Assembly (NCBI RefSeq): GCF_928381405.1
Contig: NZ_CAKMSB010000004.1
Location: 62,001 to 126,000, forward strand
DNA length: 64,000 nucleotides
Direction: 5' to 3'
DNA from: Rothia nasisuis
GTDB lineage: Bacteria > Actinomycetota > Actinomycetes > Actinomycetales > Micrococcaceae
Shown here piece by piece: positions 8,669-22,765 of this stretch. Below the pieces are notes generated by a model. That model was not told where the DNA came from. It saw nothing but the letters and a program-made list of their open reading frames with translations, and made no database searches. The translations under genes and the position numbers were made by a program. Every line of letters starts with the position of its first letter. Position 1 is the first letter of the stretch.

Positions 8669-9280
8669 TTACTGGTCGTCGGTCGGCGAGTTTTCCTCGG
8701 CCTGTGAATGGGTGTAGCTGAATGAAGAGTAGTAGTCTCGAAGCACCTGGCGGCGATTTTCTTGCGAGGCCGGAGATAGTCCATTACCCCAGTAAATGAT
8801 GGTTTTTGCTAGGTTGTATTTATCGAGGGCCGGTGGGTTTTGTAACCCATTAGCAAGAGCCAGTAATCGCCTAATGTTCAAGACAGCCTCTTCAAGCGGT
8901 TGGGTATGAAGATAAGCAAGACGCTGCCCCACAACATCAGGATCGTTAGGGTTGAGATATTTTCTAACACCTAGATGCATAGATAGCTGGTAACACCAGG
9001 AACCGAATGAGCGATACCCCGCCCCGTTGTCTCTATCGAATGTTGGAATATTCTTGTACTCCGCAAGCATCGCAGCAACTCTCAAGAGAGCCGTCTGTTG
9101 CTCTTGTGACTTAAAATCTGCCGTATAAGGCAATACATGGGGGTAGGCATAGTGTTCAGTGATAGGGCTATTTCCGCGACGCAAGGCAGAAATTTCTTTA
9201 GTATGGCCACCTTCTTGCCCTATCATCCAGTCAATCCTTTTGATGAGGTGGCACCAAACAGCTGGCTGACTATTCGCCAT
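8669..9280 (-). CDS. cse2: CRISPR type I-E small subunit Cse2 (Cas11/CasB)
   Basis: This 203-residue, mainly helical protein matches Cse2. It has an early RRGNSPITEHYAYPHVLPY segment and a central FGSWCYQLSMHLGV. A late ALANGLQNPPALDKYNLAKTIIYWG carries the family's characteristic basic helix. Two copies normally bridge the Cas7 filament and stabilise the R-loop. It overlaps cse1 by 11 bases. Confidence 0.88.
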   Translation of the reverse strand: MANSQPAVWCHLIKRIDWMIGQEGGHTKEISALRRGNSPITEHYAYPHVLPYTADFKSQEQQTALLRVAAMLAEYKNIPTFDRDNGAGYRSFGSWCYQLSMHLGVRKYLNPNDPDVVGQRLAYLHTQPLEEAVLNIRRLLALANGLQNPPALDKYNLAKTIIYWGNGLSPASQENRRQVLRDYYSSFSYTHSQAEENSPTDDQ

Positions 9281-10895
9281 CGGCTTCCTCCTGATTAGGG
9301 GTTTCGTTGATTATGTTCATGGCTTTTCTAATACGACGACTAAGATGACCCCGCACATACTCGATACGGGCGGCATCCTGATTTCGATAGGGAAGGACGG
9401 TAACATCGTAGGCTTCTATAGCGGCGTCAATAGCCTCTCGAAGGAGAGAATCCGGCAGGCTCCCACCGACCTCACTATCATGTTGGAGAAAGTTTTTATA
9501 AACAGGAGTGATGAACCGCCAATAGTTAGTAGATACATCTACCCGTAAGTTTGCAAGATTATCCAAAATATCTGGACGGCGATTTTTAAGATCCTTTTTC
9601 CGTTCCTCCGAACTCCATCTCCTAAAGGGTGAGCAAACAATGGAGTGTATCTTTTGCAATACATGTGCCTGCCTTTGAATCAGCAGCTGAACCCCCTGGG
9701 GCTGACCAAAGGACCAGAGCTCCGGATTAGGTATGTACACCTGAGACGCTCGAATAATAGAGGTTGTCGATGAACCTTGTATCTGATGCCGAATAAACGA
9801 TAGTCTAGACTCGCGCGAGGAATAGAAACAATCATCTCTCCGGTCTTGGGCTGCCAATCCTTTTTCTTCTGCAGCCCACTCAACAGCTAAATCTGTAGCA
9901 TCCCTACCTAAATCAAGCCGTTGATCTTTATATTCACCCATTTGGTTCTTCATATATAGATAAAAGGGATCATTGATATCGCGCTGGTCCCACCAATTCT
10001 TGCGTGCATCCTTATCCTGTCCCATAGTAGGTAAGTACCATTCGTCAGGTATACCACCGATACGCACGCCGACAAGACGATCATCATCCCATAAACAGGC
10101 CGCCGTATTGGAGCTCCAAGTACCTGCCCACAGGGGATGTTCCGTTCCATCATCCAGCAGAGCTGTAGCCCCCGTCCGGTCGCACCAGGCTGGTAAGGCA
10201 TGCCCCTGAACCCAGGTTTTAGGCAAAGATTGTAAAAGAGTTGCCAGCAGGCTCTTCTCTTCCCAGAAGATCTCTGTGGCGGTTTGGCCTGATTCAACGG
10301 CCCTAGCCCCAGGAGTGCCATTGGAACATTTTCTGCCTGCGTACACATTATTTCCCGCCATGGAATAGTGATAATGCACTGCCAAGCTCTGCACCGCTTC
10401 CACTATGCCAAAGCTACTTTTTTGCTTAGACGATAAGTTCCAGAAGTCCTCCGCAGCGCCTGGTATGACATTGGGATGAAGCTTCTTAACAGGTTTATTC
10501 CCTGGCTCTATGATTCGAGAAGTATCTCTAGACGATTCAGGTTCTAGAACCGGGCATTGCAGAAAAGGAAAGGAAGATGAGAACACATCTGCACCAGCCT
10601 CCAACTGCTTTATTCCCCGGTCCACAGCTGATTCACTCAGCCCCTGCTCAAAAATCCTTTTTACTAGCGTCCTTTCTCTCCGGGGTTCGTATCCTTCTTC
10701 ATAGCGCAGAACTACAGCGAGCACGTCTCGAAGAATTCGCGTCTGAGCCCCTAAAAGGTACCCAGGAATCTTTTTATCGAGTGCTGTCCCTTCTTGATGG
10801 GAAGACAGGAGAGCATCCCGTATAGTGATATTAGACACTCCCTCATCACCTTCAAGGCGAATCCAGGGAATGTCAGTCAGAGCATTGGATAGCAA
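9270..10895 (-). CDS. cse1: CRISPR type I-E large subunit Cse1 (Cas8e/CasA)
   Basis: Cse1 reads the PAM and recruits Cas3. The 541-residue frame starts at a TTG (10895), decided by a perfect AAGGAGG six to seven bases upstream and by the conserved opening LSNALTDIPWIRLEG. Later landmarks are FPFLQCPVLEP near residue 110, PAWCDRTGATALLDDGTEHPLWAG near 240, and a C-terminal helical bundle. Length is normal (500-560). It is first in the left operon cse1-cse2-cas7e-cas5e. Its promoter region is shared with the right operon. Confidence 0.92.
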   Translation of the reverse strand: MLSNALTDIPWIRLEGDEGVSNITIRDALLSSHQEGTALDKKIPGYLLGAQTRILRDVLAVVLRYEEGYEPRRERTLVKRIFEQGLSESAVDRGIKQLEAGADVFSSSFPFLQCPVLEPESSRDTSRIIEPGNKPVKKLHPNVIPGAAEDFWNLSSKQKSSFGIVEAVQSLAVHYHYSMAGNNVYAGRKCSNGTPGARAVESGQTATEIFWEEKSLLATLLQSLPKTWVQGHALPAWCDRTGATALLDDGTEHPLWAGTWSSNTAACLWDDDRLVGVRIGGIPDEWYLPTMGQDKDARKNWWDQRDINDPFYLYMKNQMGEYKDQRLDLGRDATDLAVEWAAEEKGLAAQDRRDDCFYSSRESRLSFIRHQIQGSSTTSIIRASQVYIPNPELWSFGQPQGVQLLIQRQAHVLQKIHSIVCSPFRRWSSEERKKDLKNRRPDILDNLANLRVDVSTNYWRFITPVYKNFLQHDSEVGGSLPDSLLREAIDAAIEAYDVTVLPYRNQDAARIEYVRGHLSRRIRKAMNIINETPNQEEADGE

Positions 10896-10972
10896 TGACT
10901 ACCTCCTTCGGTTTCTACATCTCCAGCGTAAATCATCAATCGGAACATTACAATTGTATGTCCTGAAAATTA

Positions 10973-11001
10973 TTGCACTTCTGTTGCCAGGAAAGTACAC
11001 T
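10973..11001 (+). promoter_or_regulatory. Candidate promoter for cas6e-cas3-cas1-cas2
   Basis: TTGCAC (10973-10978) and TACACT (10996-11001) are separated by exactly 17 bases, a good sigma-70/HrdB-type match. It reads towards cas6e and predicts a start near 11008, at the foot of the orphan repeat-like hairpin. The resulting 5' untranslated region would be about 145 nt. On the minus strand a TACAAT-like -10 at 10953-10958 could serve cse1, but no good -35 accompanies it. Confidence 0.5.
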
Positions 11002-11005
11002 GGGA

Positions 11006-11034
11006 ACAGATTCCCCCGCGGTTGCGGGGAAGGT
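11006..11034 (-). repeat. Orphan degenerate CRISPR-repeat-like element between the two cas operons
   Basis: Read on the minus strand this 29-mer matches the array repeat at 19 of 29 positions without gaps. The matches include CTTCCCCGC at repeat positions 3-11 and GCGGGGG at positions 16-22. The stem CCCCGC/GCGGGG and the 4-base loop length are identical to the array; only the loop differs (AACC instead of TCAG). Because the stem is a hairpin it also exists in plus-strand RNA, just after the predicted start of the cas6e operon. It could be an array remnant, a CreR-like guide element or a Cas6e-binding leader hairpin. Confidence 0.6.
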
Positions 11035-11153
11035 CTCGGACACTACAACTGTATTGAACTACCCCGCCACTAACCGAAAAATGCAGCAGGAACCCGAGGC
11101 AAGAGCAACTCTACCAGCAGCCTGCTGGTACAGCCTAGAGAAAGCAGTAAGCA

Positions 11154-11843
11154 GTGCCGCACGCCGTATTCCTCACCAAATATCCTGTCCATGAAGCCCT
11201 CATGGTGGCCCACCCTGGAAAACCGCAGCAAGGTTGGGATGTCAACTCCCCTATCTTCCGCCACCGTGCCACAATGCATCTTTTCCCTGAGTTAGCAGGT
11301 GACACACCACGTGCGAAATCAGGCATCCTCTTCCGACTCGATGCTGTTGCAGGTAGTGCCCCCTATTTTCTAATCCAGTCTGAAGTTGCACCAGCAGAAG
11401 GTCACCCCGTAGAGACAAAGCAAGTCTTGCTCCAGTCACCCCCAAGCGGAACGCACGTTTCCTTCCGGTTATCTGTTAACGCTGTTAAGAGGAAAGGGAG
11501 AGAAGAAGGAAGTAACCTCAAGAGAGGCCAGGGCATTACACAGATTCCTTTCGATGGAGATACTGAAGCAGATGAACGACTGCCCCGCATGAGCGATTGG
11601 CTGGCTAGCAAACTCTCCCCCGCCCTCAGCGAGGTCACTATCATGAATCACCAACGTCAAGTTTTAGGAGCTAACCGTGCAGGACGCGCTCAAGGCAGTC
11701 CTTTCGCAGTGCAGGTCGATACTATTGATGGATTCGCTCGCGTCACAAATCCAGCCCATCTCGAAGAGCTTCTTCTGAACGGGGTTGGCCGGGCAAAATC
11801 ATACGGTTGTGGCCTGCTCTCCATCCGCCCATTAGCAGATTAA
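11154..11843 (+). CDS. cas6e: CRISPR type I-E pre-crRNA endoribonuclease Cas6e (Cse3/CasE)
   Basis: The 229-residue protein starts at GTG (11154) as MPHAVFLTKYPVH, a normal Cas6e opening; no usable ATG is available upstream. FRHRATMHLFPEL places His37 where the catalytic histidine of Cse3 proteins lies. The C-terminus has the glycine-rich loop NGVGRAKSYGCGLLSI, which is diagnostic. It cuts the 61-nt repeat-spacer transcript at the base of the repeat stem and stays bound in Cascade. It heads the right operon, apart from the other Cascade genes. The ribosome site is weak (AGAGAAAG). Confidence 0.9.
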   Translation: MPHAVFLTKYPVHEALMVAHPGKPQQGWDVNSPIFRHRATMHLFPELAGDTPRAKSGILFRLDAVAGSAPYFLIQSEVAPAEGHPVETKQVLLQSPPSGTHVSFRLSVNAVKRKGREEGSNLKRGQGITQIPFDGDTEADERLPRMSDWLASKLSPALSEVTIMNHQRQVLGANRAGRAQGSPFAVQVDTIDGFARVTNPAHLEELLLNGVGRAKSYGCGLLSIRPLAD

Positions 11844-11861: not shown

Positions 11862-14501
11862 GTGAAGAGTCACCCTTACCTATGGTCAAAGCAAAACGGT
11901 CTCAACCAAACCTATCCCCTCTTAGCCCACCTTCTTGATACTGCAACGGTAGCAAGGGTTCTTCACGACTACTGGCTCAGGCCAGGCCTGCAAACCCTTA
12001 TTGCTGAAGAGCTGGGGGACGCAAGCACAAAAATTATCCAGTGGATAGCTGGATCCCACGACATAGGTAAAGCATCTCCCATATTTCAGGCCCAGCCTCG
12101 CCGTAAAGGCCCTGAATGGGATCGGATACGCGAGTCAATATCTGTTCACGAGCCTGACTGTATCTTCCTTGACGAGAGAACGCTGGCCGATATCAATCGG
12201 AGCGGGTATAGATTTCTTGCACGACATGAGCAAGTTGGGGCTTTCTTCCTCACTCATGAGGAGTTGACGGATCGAAACGAATACACTTCTCATTTTTGGT
12301 CCGCCCTTCCAGTTTTAGGCCACCACGGCACTTTTACTTTCCCAGAACAAGGGAATAGCAAGGCATCCGACCTCGTGTTTCAGCAAGCTCTAGCGACTCT
12401 AAAGCTAGGATGGACTGACGCTCAAACTGACCTACTCGAAGTTCTCTCTGAAGCCCTTGGAATCTCACCTGATGATTTTCCTGAAGAAGTATCACCGACC
12501 GTCACCGTCCTACTTTCAGGACTCGTTATTCTCGCTGACCGTATTGCCTCAGGAACGGACTGGGTAGCACAAAACCAAGAACTTATAGCAGAAGGGAAAC
12601 TTTCCCTTGAAGAACCTGTAGCTTGGATCGAGACTTGCACTGACCGTGCCCTAGAACGCGTCAAAGATACTGTAGGCCTTTACCACGGTTGGGAAAATGC
12701 AGAAACAGCTCAATCCTCTATCCTAGGTAACTACGCGCCTAGACCTTTGCAACAAGAAGCGCTCACGGCAGGCGAAGGCATTTGGAATGCAATGGCACCA
12801 ACTGGCAATGGAAAAACTGAAGCAGCCCTGCTCCGGCACTCCCTCAAAGATGAACGGCTCGTTTTCCTTCTTCCCACCCAAGCCACAACTAACGCTCTCA
12901 TGCGACGCATCCAAAAGGCATATTCCACTACCCCTAACGTTGCCTCTCTAGCGCATGGGCTATCTTCCATCGAAGACTTCTATATCAGGCCCGTCACCGT
13001 TTTCTCAGATACCTGTAATGGTCAAGATAGTGGTGGCCTCTACCCCACCGAGTTCGTCAAATCAGGCGCTTCTCGCTTACTTGCGCCCGTTTGCGTTGGC
13101 ACCATCGATCAGCCACTCATGGCCTCTATCCCCATGAAATGGACTCACCTACGATTACTAGCACTCGCGAACGCCCATGTAGTCATCGATGAGATTCACA
13201 CTCTCGACCATTACCAAAGTGAACTACTAGTACCCCTATTAACCTGGCTAGGTCTCACTCGCACTCGGGTAACCTTTCTATCCGCGACTTTTCCTCAGTG
13301 GCAACGCGAGCGCTTCCTTACAGCGTATACGGGCCACAAACCAGAGCAGGAAGGGATTTTCCCTTCAGCCGAGTCAGCTGACGTCGAAAACTTCATGCCT
13401 AGCCAAACCGTACTTAGCGTTCCCACTTACACTATTGACTTTACTTTCGCAGAGCCTGACTACCCTGATTTGGAGTCAACTCATATTCAATGGGCTATCG
13501 AGCACCGACACGAATTTCCCTCAGCAAGACTGGGCATTATCTGTAATACGGTCAAAAGGGCTCAAGCCATTGCGCAGAAGCTATCAGACCTGGGTGAAAC
13601 GGTTATTTTGTTACACTCTCGCATGACTGCTGAACACCGCAAACGTAATGCTGAACTACTTGAACAAACAATCGGCTCTAATGGTCAAGGAACGGCACTA
13701 ACTGTTGTTGGTACCCAAACGATTGAGGCCTCTCTCGATATCGACCTTGATTTGCTCTCTACGGATCTCTGCCCCGCACCATCCTTGATTCAACGAGCAG
13801 GACGCGTATGGAGACGAGAAGATATCGACAGAAAGAATCGAATCCCTGGAATTACGAATTTACCGATTCAAGTTGTCAAACCCAGTACGCCTGAAACATG
13901 GATGCTTAAGCCGTACTACCCAGCTGAGCTCCAACGTACCTGGGGTTTTCTACAGGATAACCCTACCTTCGAATGTCCAACTATGAACCAAGACTTCGTA
14001 GATGCTGCCGCTGTAACCCTTGACTCTATTCTCACTTCAGAAGACCTAGATCAGTTCGCTGAAAACTCTGCTGCCCTTCGTAAAGGTAAAGATAAATCTG
14101 AGAAACTAGCCAATGCCCTGCACCCTCTAAGTACCATCAAAGAGTTTAGCGACATGACGGATAAAAATTTTAACGACTCAGATGATGGCGCCTTTACCCG
14201 CCTTATCAATAGCGAAATTCGTCAAGTTATTGTAGGTGGAAGTCCTGAGCAAATACCCGGTGCTTGGGAAGGAACTTTAGAAGATCTGTGCGCTCTCACC
14301 GCGCATGACCAAACAGAAATCCAAAAGGCACTACGGGCGTCCTTACCCATTGTTGTATCGAAAGATAATCGAGAGTACCTCAATTCCCTACCCTCGCTAG
14401 ATAGCTCTAAGACTCTTCTCAATCGTTACTACTACATGCAAATACCCCACAATAGTGTTTACGACCCTGTCCTTGGCTTTACAGGATCCGGTGAACAATG
14501 A
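11862..14501 (+). CDS. cas3: CRISPR-associated nuclease-helicase Cas3
   Basis: This 879-residue protein has both Cas3 modules fused. The HD nuclease lies in the first 270 residues, with GSHDIGK at about 64-70. The SF2 helicase follows, with Walker A APTGNGKTEAAL near 311, DEIHTLDHYQ near 443 and LSATFP near 475. Motif VI, LIQRAGRVWRR, lies near 645. It degrades the displaced strand after Cascade binding. GTG start with AAGGAG seven bases upstream, 18 bases after cas6e. In most I-E loci cas3 lies upstream of cse1; here it sits between cas6e and cas1. Confidence 0.95.
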   Translation: MKSHPYLWSKQNGLNQTYPLLAHLLDTATVARVLHDYWLRPGLQTLIAEELGDASTKIIQWIAGSHDIGKASPIFQAQPRRKGPEWDRIRESISVHEPDCIFLDERTLADINRSGYRFLARHEQVGAFFLTHEELTDRNEYTSHFWSALPVLGHHGTFTFPEQGNSKASDLVFQQALATLKLGWTDAQTDLLEVLSEALGISPDDFPEEVSPTVTVLLSGLVILADRIASGTDWVAQNQELIAEGKLSLEEPVAWIETCTDRALERVKDTVGLYHGWENAETAQSSILGNYAPRPLQQEALTAGEGIWNAMAPTGNGKTEAALLRHSLKDERLVFLLPTQATTNALMRRIQKAYSTTPNVASLAHGLSSIEDFYIRPVTVFSDTCNGQDSGGLYPTEFVKSGASRLLAPVCVGTIDQPLMASIPMKWTHLRLLALANAHVVIDEIHTLDHYQSELLVPLLTWLGLTRTRVTFLSATFPQWQRERFLTAYTGHKPEQEGIFPSAESADVENFMPSQTVLSVPTYTIDFTFAEPDYPDLESTHIQWAIEHRHEFPSARLGIICNTVKRAQAIAQKLSDLGETVILLHSRMTAEHRKRNAELLEQTIGSNGQGTALTVVGTQTIEASLDIDLDLLSTDLCPAPSLIQRAGRVWRREDIDRKNRIPGITNLPIQVVKPSTPETWMLKPYYPAELQRTWGFLQDNPTFECPTMNQDFVDAAAVTLDSILTSEDLDQFAENSAALRKGKDKSEKLANALHPLSTIKEFSDMTDKNFNDSDDGAFTRLINSEIRQVIVGGSPEQIPGAWEGTLEDLCALTAHDQTEIQKALRASLPIVVSKDNREYLNSLPSLDSSKTLLNRYYYMQIPHNSVYDPVLGFTGSGEQ

Positions 14502-15436
14502 GTTACTCAGAAGAAGCTCTCGCCTTCTCAACTATCCCCACTGACCATCAAGTCAGATTAGAAGACCGCGTGTCCTTCCTCTACCTTGAATATTGCGTCG
14601 TCAGACAAGATAAAACAGGAGTAATCGCATACGGCGGGGATACTGAAAAAGGAGCCATTGCAGGCAAAAGAGTTCAATTGCCTGTCAGCGGTCTCTCAGT
14701 GCTTATGCTTGGTCCTGGCACGAGTATCACCCAACCAGCTATTACTTCTTGCACCCGTGCCGGAACAACAGTCATGTTCACGGGTGGCGGTGGGGTCCCA
14801 GCCTACTCTCATGCAACTCCGCTGACCTCATCTGCTCGTTGGGCAATTGCCCAAGCGCGTCTCGTTTCACAAGAAAAGAATCAACGCACAGCGGCTCTCG
14901 TCCTATATAAAAAGCAACTTGGTATTGAACATATGCCCGGGGGAACTATTGCCACAATGCGCGGACTAGAGGGGAGAACTATCAGAAACCTCTACCGTGA
15001 CACAGCCAAGAAATACAAAATTACACGCTTCCGCAGGCAAGTCGATGCCGAGGATAATGTGAACATGGCGCTTAACATCGCTAACTCTATCTTGTACGGG
15101 TGCGCAGCAGCAGCCTGCGCAGCTATCGGAGTAAACCCAGCCCTTGGAATCATTCACCGAGGAGACGCCCGGTCTCTTCTTTTTGATCTTGCTGATCTTT
15201 ATAAACCTTCGCTATCAATTCCTGTTGCTTTTGCATGCCATAACAGCACTAATCTCGCTGAAGATGTTAGGACAGGAGTCCGAAAAGAACTTGTCAACCA
15301 GCAGGTCCTCAAGGGTATGCTCCAAACGTTAATGGAAGTACTTACACCGCACTTACCTCATAGGGATGATGATCGGCTTATTTCCGACCGGGGAGAAGAA
15401 GTTGAGGGGCATACCCAATACGGCGGTGAGCAGTAA
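14498..15436 (+). CDS. cas1: CRISPR adaptation integrase Cas1 (type I-E)
   Basis: The 312-residue Cas1 has the metal-binding catalytic residues in place: Glu158 in RGLEGRTIR, His220 in LGIIHRGDAR and Asp230/Asp233 in LLFDLADLYK. The N-terminal beta-domain contains FLYLEYCVV and the GLSVLMLGPGTSIT stretch of I-E Cas1 proteins. Its ATG overlaps the cas3 stop (ATGA), implying coupled translation. With Cas2 it inserts new spacers at the leader end of the adjacent array. Confidence 0.95.
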   Translation: MSYSEEALAFSTIPTDHQVRLEDRVSFLYLEYCVVRQDKTGVIAYGGDTEKGAIAGKRVQLPVSGLSVLMLGPGTSITQPAITSCTRAGTTVMFTGGGGVPAYSHATPLTSSARWAIAQARLVSQEKNQRTAALVLYKKQLGIEHMPGGTIATMRGLEGRTIRNLYRDTAKKYKITRFRRQVDAEDNVNMALNIANSILYGCAAAACAAIGVNPALGIIHRGDARSLLFDLADLYKPSLSIPVAFACHNSTNLAEDVRTGVRKELVNQQVLKGMLQTLMEVLTPHLPHRDDDRLISDRGEEVEGHTQYGGEQ

Positions 15437-15438
15437 AT

Positions 15439-15750
15439 ATGTTTGTGGTTCTGTCTGCAACAGCTATACCTGGACATCTGCGTGGATACCTCAGTAGATT
15501 TTTATCAGAGGCGGCGACCGGACTGTATGTTGGTAATGTATCAAAACGCGTACAAGAAAATCTGTGGGCCCGATGTGTACTTGCAGCGAAAGAAGGATCC
15601 TTCACGATGATTACCAGCGACCGGCAAGCAGAACAGGGATTCACTATTCAGTCAGTCGGAGTTCAGAGTCGCCCTGTCATTGAACTGGATGGACTTGCAC
15701 TGACTTACTTGCCGGTGCCTCGGAACAGCGAAAATTCAGGTTCTAGCTGA
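15439..15750 (+). CDS. cas2: CRISPR adaptation protein Cas2 (type I-E)
   Basis: This 103-residue protein opens MFVVLSATAIPGHLRGYLSRFL, the standard start of I-E Cas2 (Cas2e/CasF-like). It continues with GLYVGNVSKRVQENLWARC and a C-terminal tail used to dock Cas1. It starts 2 bases after cas1. Its stop codon lies only 21 bases before the first CRISPR repeat, so the array leader must overlap the end of this gene. Confidence 0.93.
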   Translation: MFVVLSATAIPGHLRGYLSRFLSEAATGLYVGNVSKRVQENLWARCVLAAKEGSFTMITSDRQAEQGFTIQSVGVQSRPVIELDGLALTYLPVPRNSENSGSS

Positions 15751-15771: not shown

Positions 15772-18700
15772 CTCTTCCCCGCTCAGGCGGGGGTATTTCC
15801 GATGAAATCATAATCCTCTGCCATTTCCATGGCTCTTCCCCGCTCAGGCGGGGGTATTTCCCTCTTCGTAATCGGGAGGGGTCAGGCCGGGCTCTCTTCC
15901 CCGCTCAGGCGGGGGTATTTCCCGGGATATCCGGGAATGGGAATGGCGCGAAGACTCTTCCCCGCTCAGGCGGGGGTATTTCCAATCTGCTCAGATGAAG
16001 CAAGGATAGGTTCTTCTCTTCCCCGCTCAGGCGGGGGTATTTCCAGGCAATCACAGCGGCGGAGTACGCCACCGCACTCTTCCCCGCTCAGGCGGGGGTA
16101 TTTCCGTTTTTTGCTCTTCTTTCTTGGCGTTCACCAGCTCTTCCCCGCTCAGGCGGGGGTATTTCCCGATATCCCCATCGGCATCGGTGAGAAGATGCCT
16201 CTTCCCCGCTCAGGCGGGGGTATTTCCTGGTAGCCCGCCAGAACGGCAAGTCCTACATCCTCTTCCCCGCTCAGGCGGGGGTATTTCCCATCATTTCAAA
16301 TGAAGCTACTGATATCCGTGCTCTTCCCCGCTCAGGCGGGGGTATTTCCCAGGTCACCGTGAAACATGGCTTACTGAATGTCTCTTCCCCGCTCAGGCGG
16401 GGGTATTTCCCTACAGGCGGCCCGCGCCGCGAACACCGTACCCTCTTCCCCGCTCAGGCGGGGGTATTTCCGGCCAGCGTGTATTTCCCTACTGGCGGGT
16501 CTACTCTTCCCCGCTCAGGCGGGGGTATTTCCGAACCGGTGGAGATACACGGTGTCGGCATTGACTCTTCCCCGCTCAGGCGGGGGTATTTCCTACAACC
16601 GCATCACCGGCGGGTACAACCTCTCCTCTTCCCCGCTCAGGCGGGGGTATTTCAGGGAACAACGAACAAAGGAAAAACCAAAATGTCTCTTCCCCGCTCA
16701 GGCGGGGGTATTTCCTGAGAGCTCCGCGCACCAGGTGGTTGGGTCGTCTCTTCCCCGCTCAGGCGGGGGTATTTCCCGCCACCAGCCAGGCGGCGGCCTA
16801 AAAACACACTCTTCCCCGCTCAGGCGGGGGTATTTCCATCACCCCAGACCTCACCGAGCGCAAAGACGCCTCTTCCCCGCTCAGGCGGGGGTATTTCCTG
16901 GTGGGTGAAGGTTGTGGCTTGGCGGGCTAGCTCTTCCCCGCTCAGGCGGGGGTATTTCCTTGCAGTAACATCGGGTGCATCGCGAACGCATCTCTTCCCC
17001 GCTCAGGCGGGGGTATTTCCATGCGCATGGCCGAGGCTGAGCAGAAGATGGACTCTTCCCCGCTCAGGCGGGGGTATTTCCGGCTTCAGTGAAGGCCTTA
17101 GCGGTAAGCATGCCTCTTCCCCGCTCAGGCGGGGGTATTTCCGTCAATCTCGCCACCGGTCTTCGCGCCGTAGGCTCTTCCCCGCTCAGGCGGGGGTATT
17201 TCCCACCAGCCGTTTTGGTTTTTCCATACGCGTGGCTCTTCCCCGCTCAGGCGGGGGTATTTCCGTATTCTTCATCCCAGTGGTTCCAGGGGTGGCCTCT
17301 TCCCCGCTCAGGCGGGGGTATTTCCGTTGTTGAAGTGCACTGGGCGCATCGAGAGATCTCTTCCCCGCTCAGGCGGGGGTATTTCTGAGGAATGGGCCAC
17401 CAGCGTAAAGCTTTCGCTCTCTTCCCCGCTCAGGCGGGGGTATTTCCGGCACGGACTATGACCCCGAACAGTTACTCATCTCTTCCCCGCTCAGGCGGGG
17501 GTATTTCCGGCACGGACTATGACCCCGAACAGTTACTCATCTCTTCCCCGCTCAGGCGGGGGTATTTCCGAGCACCCGCTGGTTGCTGGCCCTATCCATG
17601 ACTCTTCCCCGCTCAGGCGGGGGTATTTCCACGAATCAACCGCCTCCTGCGCCTCCGATTCCCTCTTCCCCGCTCAGGCGGGGGTATTTCCATCTGAGGC
17701 AGATATGACCGGCCTACTGCAGCCTCTTCCCCGCTCAGGCGGGGGTATTTCCTAGGCGACCCAACTCCCCATCCCATGAGAGGGCTCTTCCCCGCTCAGG
17801 CGGGGGTATTTCCTAGGTTTACTGCCCTTGTGAAGTAGCAGCTTCCTCTTCCCCGCTCAGGCGGGGGTATTTCCGGCATCAAGGCCGAATTCACACCCGG
17901 CCAGACCTCTTCCCCGCTCAGGCGGGGGTATTTCCAGTGTCTCATAACCCGCCGCCTGCGCCGCGCCCTCTTCCCCGCTCAGGCGGGGGTATTTCCGCTT
18001 TTTTCTCCGCCCTCGCCGACCAATTCAACTCTTCCCCGCTCAGGCGGGGGTATTTCCTGAGGTGAGAGTGATCGTTGCGGCTTCTTCCCCTCTTCCCCGC
18101 TCAGGCGGGGGTATTTCCCTCATCATCAGACCCCGGAGAAACCGAAGACGCTCTTCCCCGCTCAGGCGGGGGTATTTCCTGCCACATATGAGGATTTGCG
18201 GTCTGCCGATGCTCTTCCCCGCTCAGGCGGGGGTATTTCCTAGCAGTGTGAATAAAAACCAAGACCCACGTCCTCTTCCCCGCTCAGGCGGGGGTATTTC
18301 CCATGATGGCTAAGGGTGGCGCTTCTGAATCTACTCTTCCCCGCTCAGGCGGGGGTATTTCCACAAGTTCCGCACTGAGATCCTCTGCCAGTGGCTCTTC
18401 CCCGCTCAGGCGGGGGTATTTCCATCGATAGCGTTAGTGACATGGTTATGCCAGGCTCTTCCCCGCTCAGGCGGGGGTATTTCCCTGAAATTCGAGACCA
18501 TTCCGGCTCACTACATCTCTTCCCCGCTCAGGCGGGGGTATTTCCCAGTAAGCCCTGTTATGGAGAGACAGGTTACCCTCTTCCCCGCTCAGGCGGGGGT
18601 ATTTCCATCAACAGGTGATTTATCCCTATCCCACGACCCTCTTCCCCGCTCAGGCGGGGGTATTTCCAAAGTGACCTCACTCGCTATCTCGCCGTTCGTC

Positions 18701-19458
18701 TCTTCCCCGCTCAGGCGGGGGTATTTCCAGGCACTCGGCTATAACGGGGGTGTAGGTAGCCTCTTCCCCGCTCAGGCGGGGGTATTTCCTGATGCGCAAT
18801 CTTCGGCCAAGCCGTGGTCTCCTCTTCCCCGCTCAGGCGGGGGTATTTCCCTAGACCGCTCGTAGCCTGCTCCCTCGTCCTGCTCTTCCCCGCTCAGGCG
18901 GGGGTATTTCCTATGCGTAAGCTGATTGACCGCAAATCACTAGCTCTTCCCCGCTCAGGCGGGGGTATTTCGGCTACTAAAACTGTTCGATACCAGCAAA
19001 CTCTCTTCCCCGCTCAGGCGGGGGTATTTCCTTCCTTTGTAGTGATCGTTGAATCAAAAGGGTCTCTTCCCCGCTCAGGCGGGGGTATTTCCAGTTGAGC
19101 CGGTGTCAGCTGTTTCGGATGCGGCTCTTCCCCGCTCAGGCGGGGGTATTTCCTCGATACGGGATTCGCGCAAGGAATCTAGTGACTCTTCCCCGCTCAG
19201 GCGGGGGTATTTCCGGCCTAGTCCATAACCGGGGCTCTTCCCGGCCCTCTTCCCCGCTCAGGCGGGGGTATTTCCCTAGGGTTGAAGCGGGGTCATTCTC
19301 GCCGTCGCTCTTCCCCGCTCAGGCGGGGGTATTTCCCAAACCTACAGGCTGACCCGGCGTGAGTGGGTCTCTTCCCCGCTCAGGCGGGGGTATTTCCGTC
19401 ACCACTGGCAACTTCGCCAGTGTAGTAACCTCTTCCCCGCTCAGGCGGGGGTAGTTCT
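15772..19458 (+). CRISPR. Type I-E CRISPR array, 61 repeats and 60 spacers
   Basis: The repeat is 29 bp, starting CTCTTCCCCGC, then TCAG, then GCGGGGGTATTTCC; the 6-bp stem has a 4-base loop. I followed every unit. Repeats begin at 15772 and every 61 bp to 18944, then at 19003 (a 59-bp unit) and every 61 bp to 19430. Spacers are 32 nt except the one after 18944 (30 nt). Position 29 varies in three repeats (16626 A, 17358 T, 18944 G). Spacers 28 and 29 (17448-17479 and 17509-17540) are identical. The last repeat (19430) carries two changes (GTAGTTCT end). Repeat orientation, adjacency to cas2 and the decayed right end put the leader at the left. Confidence 0.98.
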
Positions 19459-19582: not shown

Positions 19583-19635
19583 CCATCTAAACCAGAAATG
19601 ACCACCTAGTTCGTGGTCATTTCTGATGTAGATGG
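19583..19635. terminator. Palindromic terminator repeat, copy A
   Basis: CCATCTA and AGATGG enclose a stem AGAAATGACCAC ... GTGGTCATTTCT around the centre CTAGTTC. It lies between the CRISPR array (plus) and the CoA-binding protein gene (minus). It shares the core AGAAAT...ACC(T)AGTTCGT...ATTTCTGAT with four other intergenic palindromes in this window. Confidence 0.65.
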
Positions 19636-19650
19636 TACCTGCGCCAGGGG

Positions 19651-22688: not shown

Positions 22689-22749
22689 GGTACCATCTAA
22701 ATCAGAAATACCCACTAACTAGGTGGGTATTTCTGGTTTAAACGGTACC
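22689..22749. terminator. Palindromic terminator repeat, copy B
   Basis: GGTACCATCTAAATCAGAAA pairs with TTTCTGGTTTAAACGGTACC around CCCACTAACTAGGTGGG. It is a near-perfect 61-bp palindrome between the convergent dedA and RNase H-like genes. Same family as copies at 19583, 33226, 37962 and 39125. Confidence 0.75.
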
Positions 22750-22765
22750 TAGGGTAGGGGGCCCG

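Follow-up and report, generated by a model that had tools for sequence, protein, structure and literature searches.

A putative creR gene between cse1 and cas6e of a type I-E CRISPR-Cas locus in Rothia nasisuis

The regulator CreR was reportedly described by Liu et al. in 2023 in Cell Host Microbe. CreR, a cas-regulating RNA, is presented as an autorepressor in types I-B, I-E, and V-A (PMC13131331), and its repression is described as being relieved by competing crRNAs and anti-CRISPR proteins (PMC12737573). For CreA of the CreTA systems, a seed consisting of guide positions 1-5 and 7-11 has been reported (PMC8501985), and accounts of type I-B include short guides that repress without interference (PMC10989794, PMC10551041).

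The window, i.e., the whole analysed stretch of 64,000 bp of the R. nasisuis genome, contains a type I-E locus in which the cse1 operon is divergent from cas6e, with a gap of 258 bp between them. The minus strand of this gap carries a module that consists of a degenerate repeat (psiR1), a 20-nt spacer, and a second degenerate repeat (psiR2), in this order. Judged from its sequence, the module is very probably a creR gene, a one-spacer mini-CRISPR whose predicted expression and processing would lead to repression of the Cascade operon via the cse1 promoter. The features of the locus are as follows.

10895 down to 6888, minus strand: Cascade operon cse1-cse2-cas7-cas5
9270..10895, minus strand: cse1 (cas8e), first gene of the Cascade operon (Pfam PF09481)
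10925..10953, minus strand: predicted cse1 promoter TTGTAA-17-TACGCT, found by eye (4 and 3 of 6 consensus bases)
10944..10959, minus strand: guide target before cse1, 13/16 match beside the PAM
10960..10962, minus strand: PAM GAC (GTC on the plus strand), in line with the AC PAM derived from array protospacers
10973..11001, plus strand: predicted cas6e promoter TTGCAC (10973-10978)-17-TACACT (10996-11001), read from the sequence
11006..11034, minus strand: psiR2, second degenerate repeat, a hairpin with 19/29 identity to the array repeat
11035..11054, minus strand: spacer (guide) of 20 nt, ATACAGTTGTAGTGTCCGAG, identified by its target match before cse1
11055..11098, minus strand: psiR1, first degenerate repeat, identified by alignment with the relatives G030, G008, and G009, by its fold, and by the survey finder
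11108..11113, minus strand: weak candidate -10 element of creR, TAGAGT, putative
11154..11843, plus strand: cas6e, crRNA-processing nuclease (Pfam PF08798, TIGR01907)
11862..15750, plus strand: cas3, cas1, and cas2, assigned by profile searches
15772..19458, plus strand: CRISPR array with 61 repeats and 60 spacers of 32 nt

The Cse1 protein itself had no match in an NCBIfam search. The array repeat has the sequence CTCTTCCCCGCTCAGGCGGGGGTATTTCC, with the repeat end GTATTTCC, and the last repeat of the array has a divergent end (GTAGTTCT). With Rfam at gathering thresholds, the only match in the window was a SAM riboswitch (RF00162, 44902-44992, 56.5 bits). Downstream of the array, a hairpin-like element occurs in two 68-nt copies (19583-19650 and 22693-22760) with 74% identity.

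A preliminary description had drawn attention to a 29-bp element on the minus strand (ACCTTCCCCGCAACCGCGGGGGAATCTGT), here named psiR2. Its gapless identity to the array repeat at 19 of 29 positions was reproduced, as were the shared stem CCCCGC/GCGGGG, the equal loop length of 4 nt, and the location between cse1 and cas6e, about 4.7 kb from the array start at 15772. The statement that only the loop differs was wrong, since the 10 mismatches are distributed over the loop (4) and the flanks (6). The element is real, yet it is one half of a larger module, whose second degenerate repeat and spacer, located 5′ of it, had gone unmentioned. It folds with -14.9 kcal/mol (z -2.8), and its six-pair stem is present in all seven copies tabulated (the window and six relatives; G030, which has a longer loop, was left out of this table), with a compensatory stem change in G009. 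In the guide RNA, psiR2 would form the 3′ handle hairpin. A weak terminator-like site (minus strand, 11017-11002; 0.5 such sites expected in the scan) overlaps psiR2. A repeat identity of 19/29 on its own is at the chance level for 60 kb, because 30 of 40 random sequences of 60 kb generated by a Markov model contained a match of at least 19/29; outside the array, the window has three further places with 19-20/29. Within a 258-bp gap such identity is rarer (19 was reached in 13 of 5000 random gaps). It is the co-evolution of guide and target that carries the case.

The first degenerate repeat is composed of the 5′ arm TTCCTGC (11092-11086), an expanded loop, and the 3′ arm GCGGG, followed by an 8-nt 5′ handle (GTAGTTCA, 11062-11055) that agrees with the array repeat at six of eight positions. 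It is strongly degenerate, and cutting at this site may be doubtful. The predicted fold of psiR1 has -10.9 kcal/mol, and that of the full window transcript (11098-11006) has -32.7 kcal/mol with both hairpins present; a 70-nt piece devoid of the psiR1 5′ arm folded no better than shuffled sequences (z -0.27). Alignment of the region with related genomes, as the preliminary description had proposed, revealed conserved psiR hairpins with compensatory stem changes. At psiR1, the arrangement TTCCTGC-loop-GCGGGG is found in the window, G030, and G008, and G009 has the hairpin CCCCGC-5-GCGGGG with six pairs in register. Compensatory changes in the psiR1 stem occur in G470 (CCCCAT/ATGGGG), G496 (CCCCAA/TTGGGG), and G396 (CTCCGC/GCGGAG), and in G613 the stem is kept with a G-T pair. 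According to the fold, the stretch CTCGG upstream of psiR1 (11094-11098) can pair with CCGAG (11035-11039) at the unmatched 3′ end of the guide; G008 has GCTCC and GGAGC at these sites, possibly a compensatory outer helix. TTCCTGC had also been considered as the creR promoter, with the start site at the handle, but this assignment was dropped in favour of the psiR1 5′ arm, which fits the alignment and the folds better. At 14-15 nt before TTCCTGC, G030 and G008 contain TAAAGT and TAAGGT, respectively, as found by eye. The candidate creR -10 element of the window is overlapped by the inverted repeat TACCAGCAG-C-CTGCTGGTA (11112-11130), a possible operator that was not seen in G030 by eye.

The preliminary description had suggested searching the 30 bases beyond the repeat for a match to the cas promoters. 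A guide was indeed found, but 5′ of the element and between the two repeats. It pairs with its target, which reads GAC (the PAM) followed by ATACAATTGTAATGTT and is located 95 nt beyond the spacer, at guide positions 1-5, 7-11, and 13-15, with mismatches at positions 6, 12, and 16. In the 2.7-Mb genome, the only exact match to the pattern of PAM and seed is the one before cse1, and the spacer itself is the only other place within two mismatches; the reversed pattern, used as a control, likewise had two places within two mismatches. The -35 element of the predicted cse1 promoter falls inside the guide target, and at the corresponding place G030 has TTGTGA-17-TATTCT. The plus-strand promoter TTGCAC-17-TACACT of the preliminary description is present, but with 3 and 4 of 6 consensus bases it can hardly be called good. 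A consensus promoter scan of positions 10850-11250 reported none, the proposed cse1, cas6e, and creR promoters all failing.

The PAM was derived from the arrays of the window, G008, and G009, which were searched against 35 Rothia genomes and phage records; spacers of these three and of G030 were matched to 24 loci hand-picked from the results. An AC PAM was found for 9 of the 16 distinct array spacers whose best site matched at no fewer than 26 of 32 positions (at least 26/32), and for 8 of 10 spacers at a threshold of at least 30/32; one of the tallied spacers, G008 spacer 25, is located in repetitive sequence. The remaining spacers had CAA, CGC, GAG (three spacers), AGT, and TCC/TGC. Among the window's own six spacers with a protospacer, a single one, an exact 32/32 match, has an AC PAM (TAC), and in the phage records the window array had only weak protospacers (26-27/32; PAMs AGT, TCC, and TGC). 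The G008 array had matches in five phage records, the G009 array in none. The array protospacers thus support an AC PAM independently, although poorly for the window's own spacers. Published type I-E PAMs include AAC in Bifidobacterium and AC in Corynebacterium (PMC8482600). In G009, a short repeat-like stretch at C7:187092-187306 is possibly a second small array.

A genus-wide search detected a Cas6e match in 20 of 35 Rothia genomes. Four of these, including the window, have the window's Cas6e type (53-100% identity; 27-41% in the other 16), and all four contain the module, each with a different guide. When each guide was compared with its own promoter under the requirement of an AC PAM and with all positions counted, 13 (window), 13 (G030), 12 (G008), and 13 (G009) of 16 positions matched, whereas the 12 swapped pairs of the 4x4 swap test scored 4-7/16 with the PAM and 8-9 without it. 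With the PAM required, the own scores were reached by none of 224 array spacers and by 0-2 of 3000 shuffled guides. Without it, again with all positions counted, 4, 0, and 1 of 3000 shuffles reached the scores of the window, G030, and G009, respectively; for the G008 score of 12, the numbers were 17 of 3000 for shuffles and 2 of 224 for array spacers. All these values have to be read in the light of the fact that the AC PAM, the scoring length of 16 nt, and the skipped positions were picked after the matches had been seen.

In a wider comparison, 17 loci were analysed against the window's cas6e, cse1, and cas3. Eleven of them (G030, G008, G009, G613, G470, G496, G396, G685, G583, G302, and G426) have a cas6e with 34-79% identity and form a clade of 12 genomes with the window; the other six are at 25-29%. 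A family-level Cas6e search added one relative below 1e-10, G302, in which cse1 is not divergent from cas6e. Within the clade, the eight genomes with divergent cse1 and cas6e and a long gap (four Rothia and four more distant) all carry the module, their guides all differ, and each guide has its match ahead of the cse1 of the same genome, next to an AC PAM. G685 and G583 (the latter has no array and is outside the survey described below) have the same divergent layout with a gap of less than about 90 nt, too short to accommodate the module, which is therefore not essential. G302 and G426 have a different gene order, and the survey finder obtained no module match in them. The reading of the module as a CreR-like guide, one of several offered in the preliminary description, is thus strongly supported by the guide, the PAM, the seed pattern, the promoter target, and the co-evolution in relatives.

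Four other explanations were weighed against these observations. It is very unlikely that the module is a CreTA-type addiction module, in which the guide would repress a toxic RNA gene and not cse1. The anatomy of the guide is CreA-like in having two psiRs, with the psiR1 handle and the first part of psiR2 best kept, and a seed at positions 1-5 and 7-11. The layout, however, leaves 110 nt from psiR2 to the cse1 start, a stretch that includes the target, and the predicted start site precedes the cse1 start codon by about 23 nt, so that a toxin gene would not fit; the cse1 start is likewise close behind the target in the other seven genomes (by eye). Still less probable is a Cas6e feedback leader, i.e., a hairpin at the start of the cas6e mRNA that would bind, or be cut by, Cas6e, as the preliminary description had also considered. 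The repeat likeness resides on the minus strand (19/29), the cas6e-sense strand reaching 15/29 at best, and neither the guide-target match nor its co-evolution would be explained, even though the palindromic psiR2 stem allows the sense strand to fold as well (-13.1 kcal/mol) and the hairpin begins just past the predicted cas6e -10 element. Two operator sites of a protein regulator would account for the palindromic TACAATTGTA in the window target and for the near-palindrome TACARTTGTA common to target and spacer, but the guides of the other genomes differ in sequence, and the matches in all eight clade genomes run in the same direction with a fixed register of handle and PAM; this possibility is rated as low as the feedback leader. 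The degeneracy of the repeats could point to a dead remnant of an old array, also raised in the preliminary description, but this has hardly any likelihood left, as eight genomes each keep a different guide matched to their own pre-cse1 stretch with PAM and seed spacing, and compensatory changes maintain the psiR stems.

The occurrence of CreR-like modules was further assessed in the whole order, in which 66 of 396 genomes contain Cas6e. Eighty regions (67 from the order search, with G499 left out, 12 from other Rothia, and G302) were combined with the four Rothia loci, and an array was detectable in 75 of these 84. To be reported by the finder, which made no assumption on genes, a locus had to combine a repeat-like hairpin and a handle-like stretch with a seed match next to AC or AG; three of the 75 loci (L155, L165, and L195) were passed over owing to repeat orientation. 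The finder returned 24 loci, whereas 100 shuffles gave 1.1 on average and at most 4. Without the PAM requirement there were 33 loci (mean 7.3 over 20 shuffles), the commonest PAMs being AAC (10), AAG (4), GAC (3), and GCG (3). Seven of the 24 (L127, L130, L136, L149, L154, L169, and L194) were removed by eye for low complexity, a non-hairpin structure, or odd placement, and L133, L138, L142, L173, and L184, plausible in earlier versions of the finder, are outside the 24. The remaining 17 loci, not all of which are independent (L144 and L153 share one guide), all pair at guide positions 1-5, 7, 8, and 11; position 9 pairs in 14, position 10 in 16, position 6 in 2, and positions 12 and 16 in 6 each. 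Their PAMs are AAC (8), GAC (4), AAG (4), and TAC (1), and their guides have 15 nt (2), 20 nt (8), 21 nt (3), or 31-33 nt (4). The filter itself contained the PAM and positions 1-5, 7-11, and 13-15, which leaves only the lengths and positions 6, 12, and 16 as free results; the clustering of lengths near 20 and 32 nt was noticed afterwards, so that its binomial value is post hoc. A second, distant type I-E system of the genus likewise has CreR-like modules, with the PAM AAG or AAC; the loci concerned are L144, L150, L153, and L183, which belong to other Rothia or to type I-E systems of the same order.

If the module is a creR gene, its transcript would arise from the minus strand between cas6e and cse1 and be cut by Cas6e at the hairpins of psiR1 and psiR2. 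The product would be a crRNA-like RNA about 49 nt long, consisting of an 8-nt handle, the 20-nt guide, and a 21-nt 3′ handle. Cascade loaded with CreR would bind the -35 region of the cse1 promoter beside the PAM GAC via guide positions 1-5, 7-11, and 13-15 and block RNA polymerase. The match is presumably too partial to recruit Cas3 for cleavage, and it is therefore proposed that repression of the Cascade operon would scale with the amount of free Cascade. Relief would come from array crRNAs or anti-CRISPR proteins drawing Cascade off CreR. The guide probably holds immunity at a low level until the need arises. Interference by E. coli Cascade is reportedly still possible with shortened spacers, going by the title of Kuznedelov et al. 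2016, which makes the partial match, and not the guide length, the likelier reason why cleavage would not occur here. One Cas7 subunit covers 6 nt. Tentatively, the actinobacterial type I-E CreR guides could be length-quantised (about 15, 20-21, and 31-33 nt) with increments close to this value, many of them loading a dedicated smaller Cascade as the repressor form; this complex, a purpose-built repressor with two Cas7 subunits fewer, is an equally speculative part of the same idea. The idea is weakened by the shortened E. coli spacers, as length alone may not prevent cleavage.

These results add eight related type I-E loci whose CRISPR effector is apparently directed to the promoter of its own genes. 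Which bases are needed (1-5, 7-11, and mostly 13-15) and which are free (6 and 12) is suggested by how guide and target co-vary in nature, and autorepression becomes testable outside the usual model systems. The question is also raised whether 20-nt guides are a natural route to binding without cleavage.

Among the known systems, as far as the cited sources describe them, the Rothia module resembles Racr (RNA anti-CRISPRs) in having a repeat-like element outside arrays (PMC10651486). Racr are described as solitary repeats of viral genomes, whereas the Rothia element is flanked by core cas genes and includes a guide with a target. The likeness to CreA of CreTA comprises the order psiR1-spacer-psiR2, the more degenerate psiR1, and the seed at 1-5 and 7-11 (PMC8501985, PMC9458426). 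Unlike in CreTA, where a toxin RNA gene follows the targeted promoter, the Rothia target precedes cse1, which follows directly and leaves no room for such a gene. CreR is described as an off-array crRNA-like gene at the cas locus with a partial match to a cas promoter, type I-E being among the reported types (PMC13131331, PMC12737573, PMC12948488). The Rothia module is likewise an off-array mini-CRISPR at the cas locus, with degenerate repeats around one spacer, and its guide is partly complementary, in PAM and seed, to the promoter of its own cas operon as predicted by eye. This comparison sets a module known from sequence alone beside published CreR as described in reviews. Features of the Rothia module beside CreR are the expanded loop of psiR1, the 20-nt guide as opposed to 32-nt array spacers, and the position antisense to the cas6e leader in a divergent locus. 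In the literature library searched, no title listed dealt with CreR in Rothia, although this does not prove absence. Guides that regulate their own system have been described before in other organisms, and the Rothia module looks like a new and well-conserved example of them.
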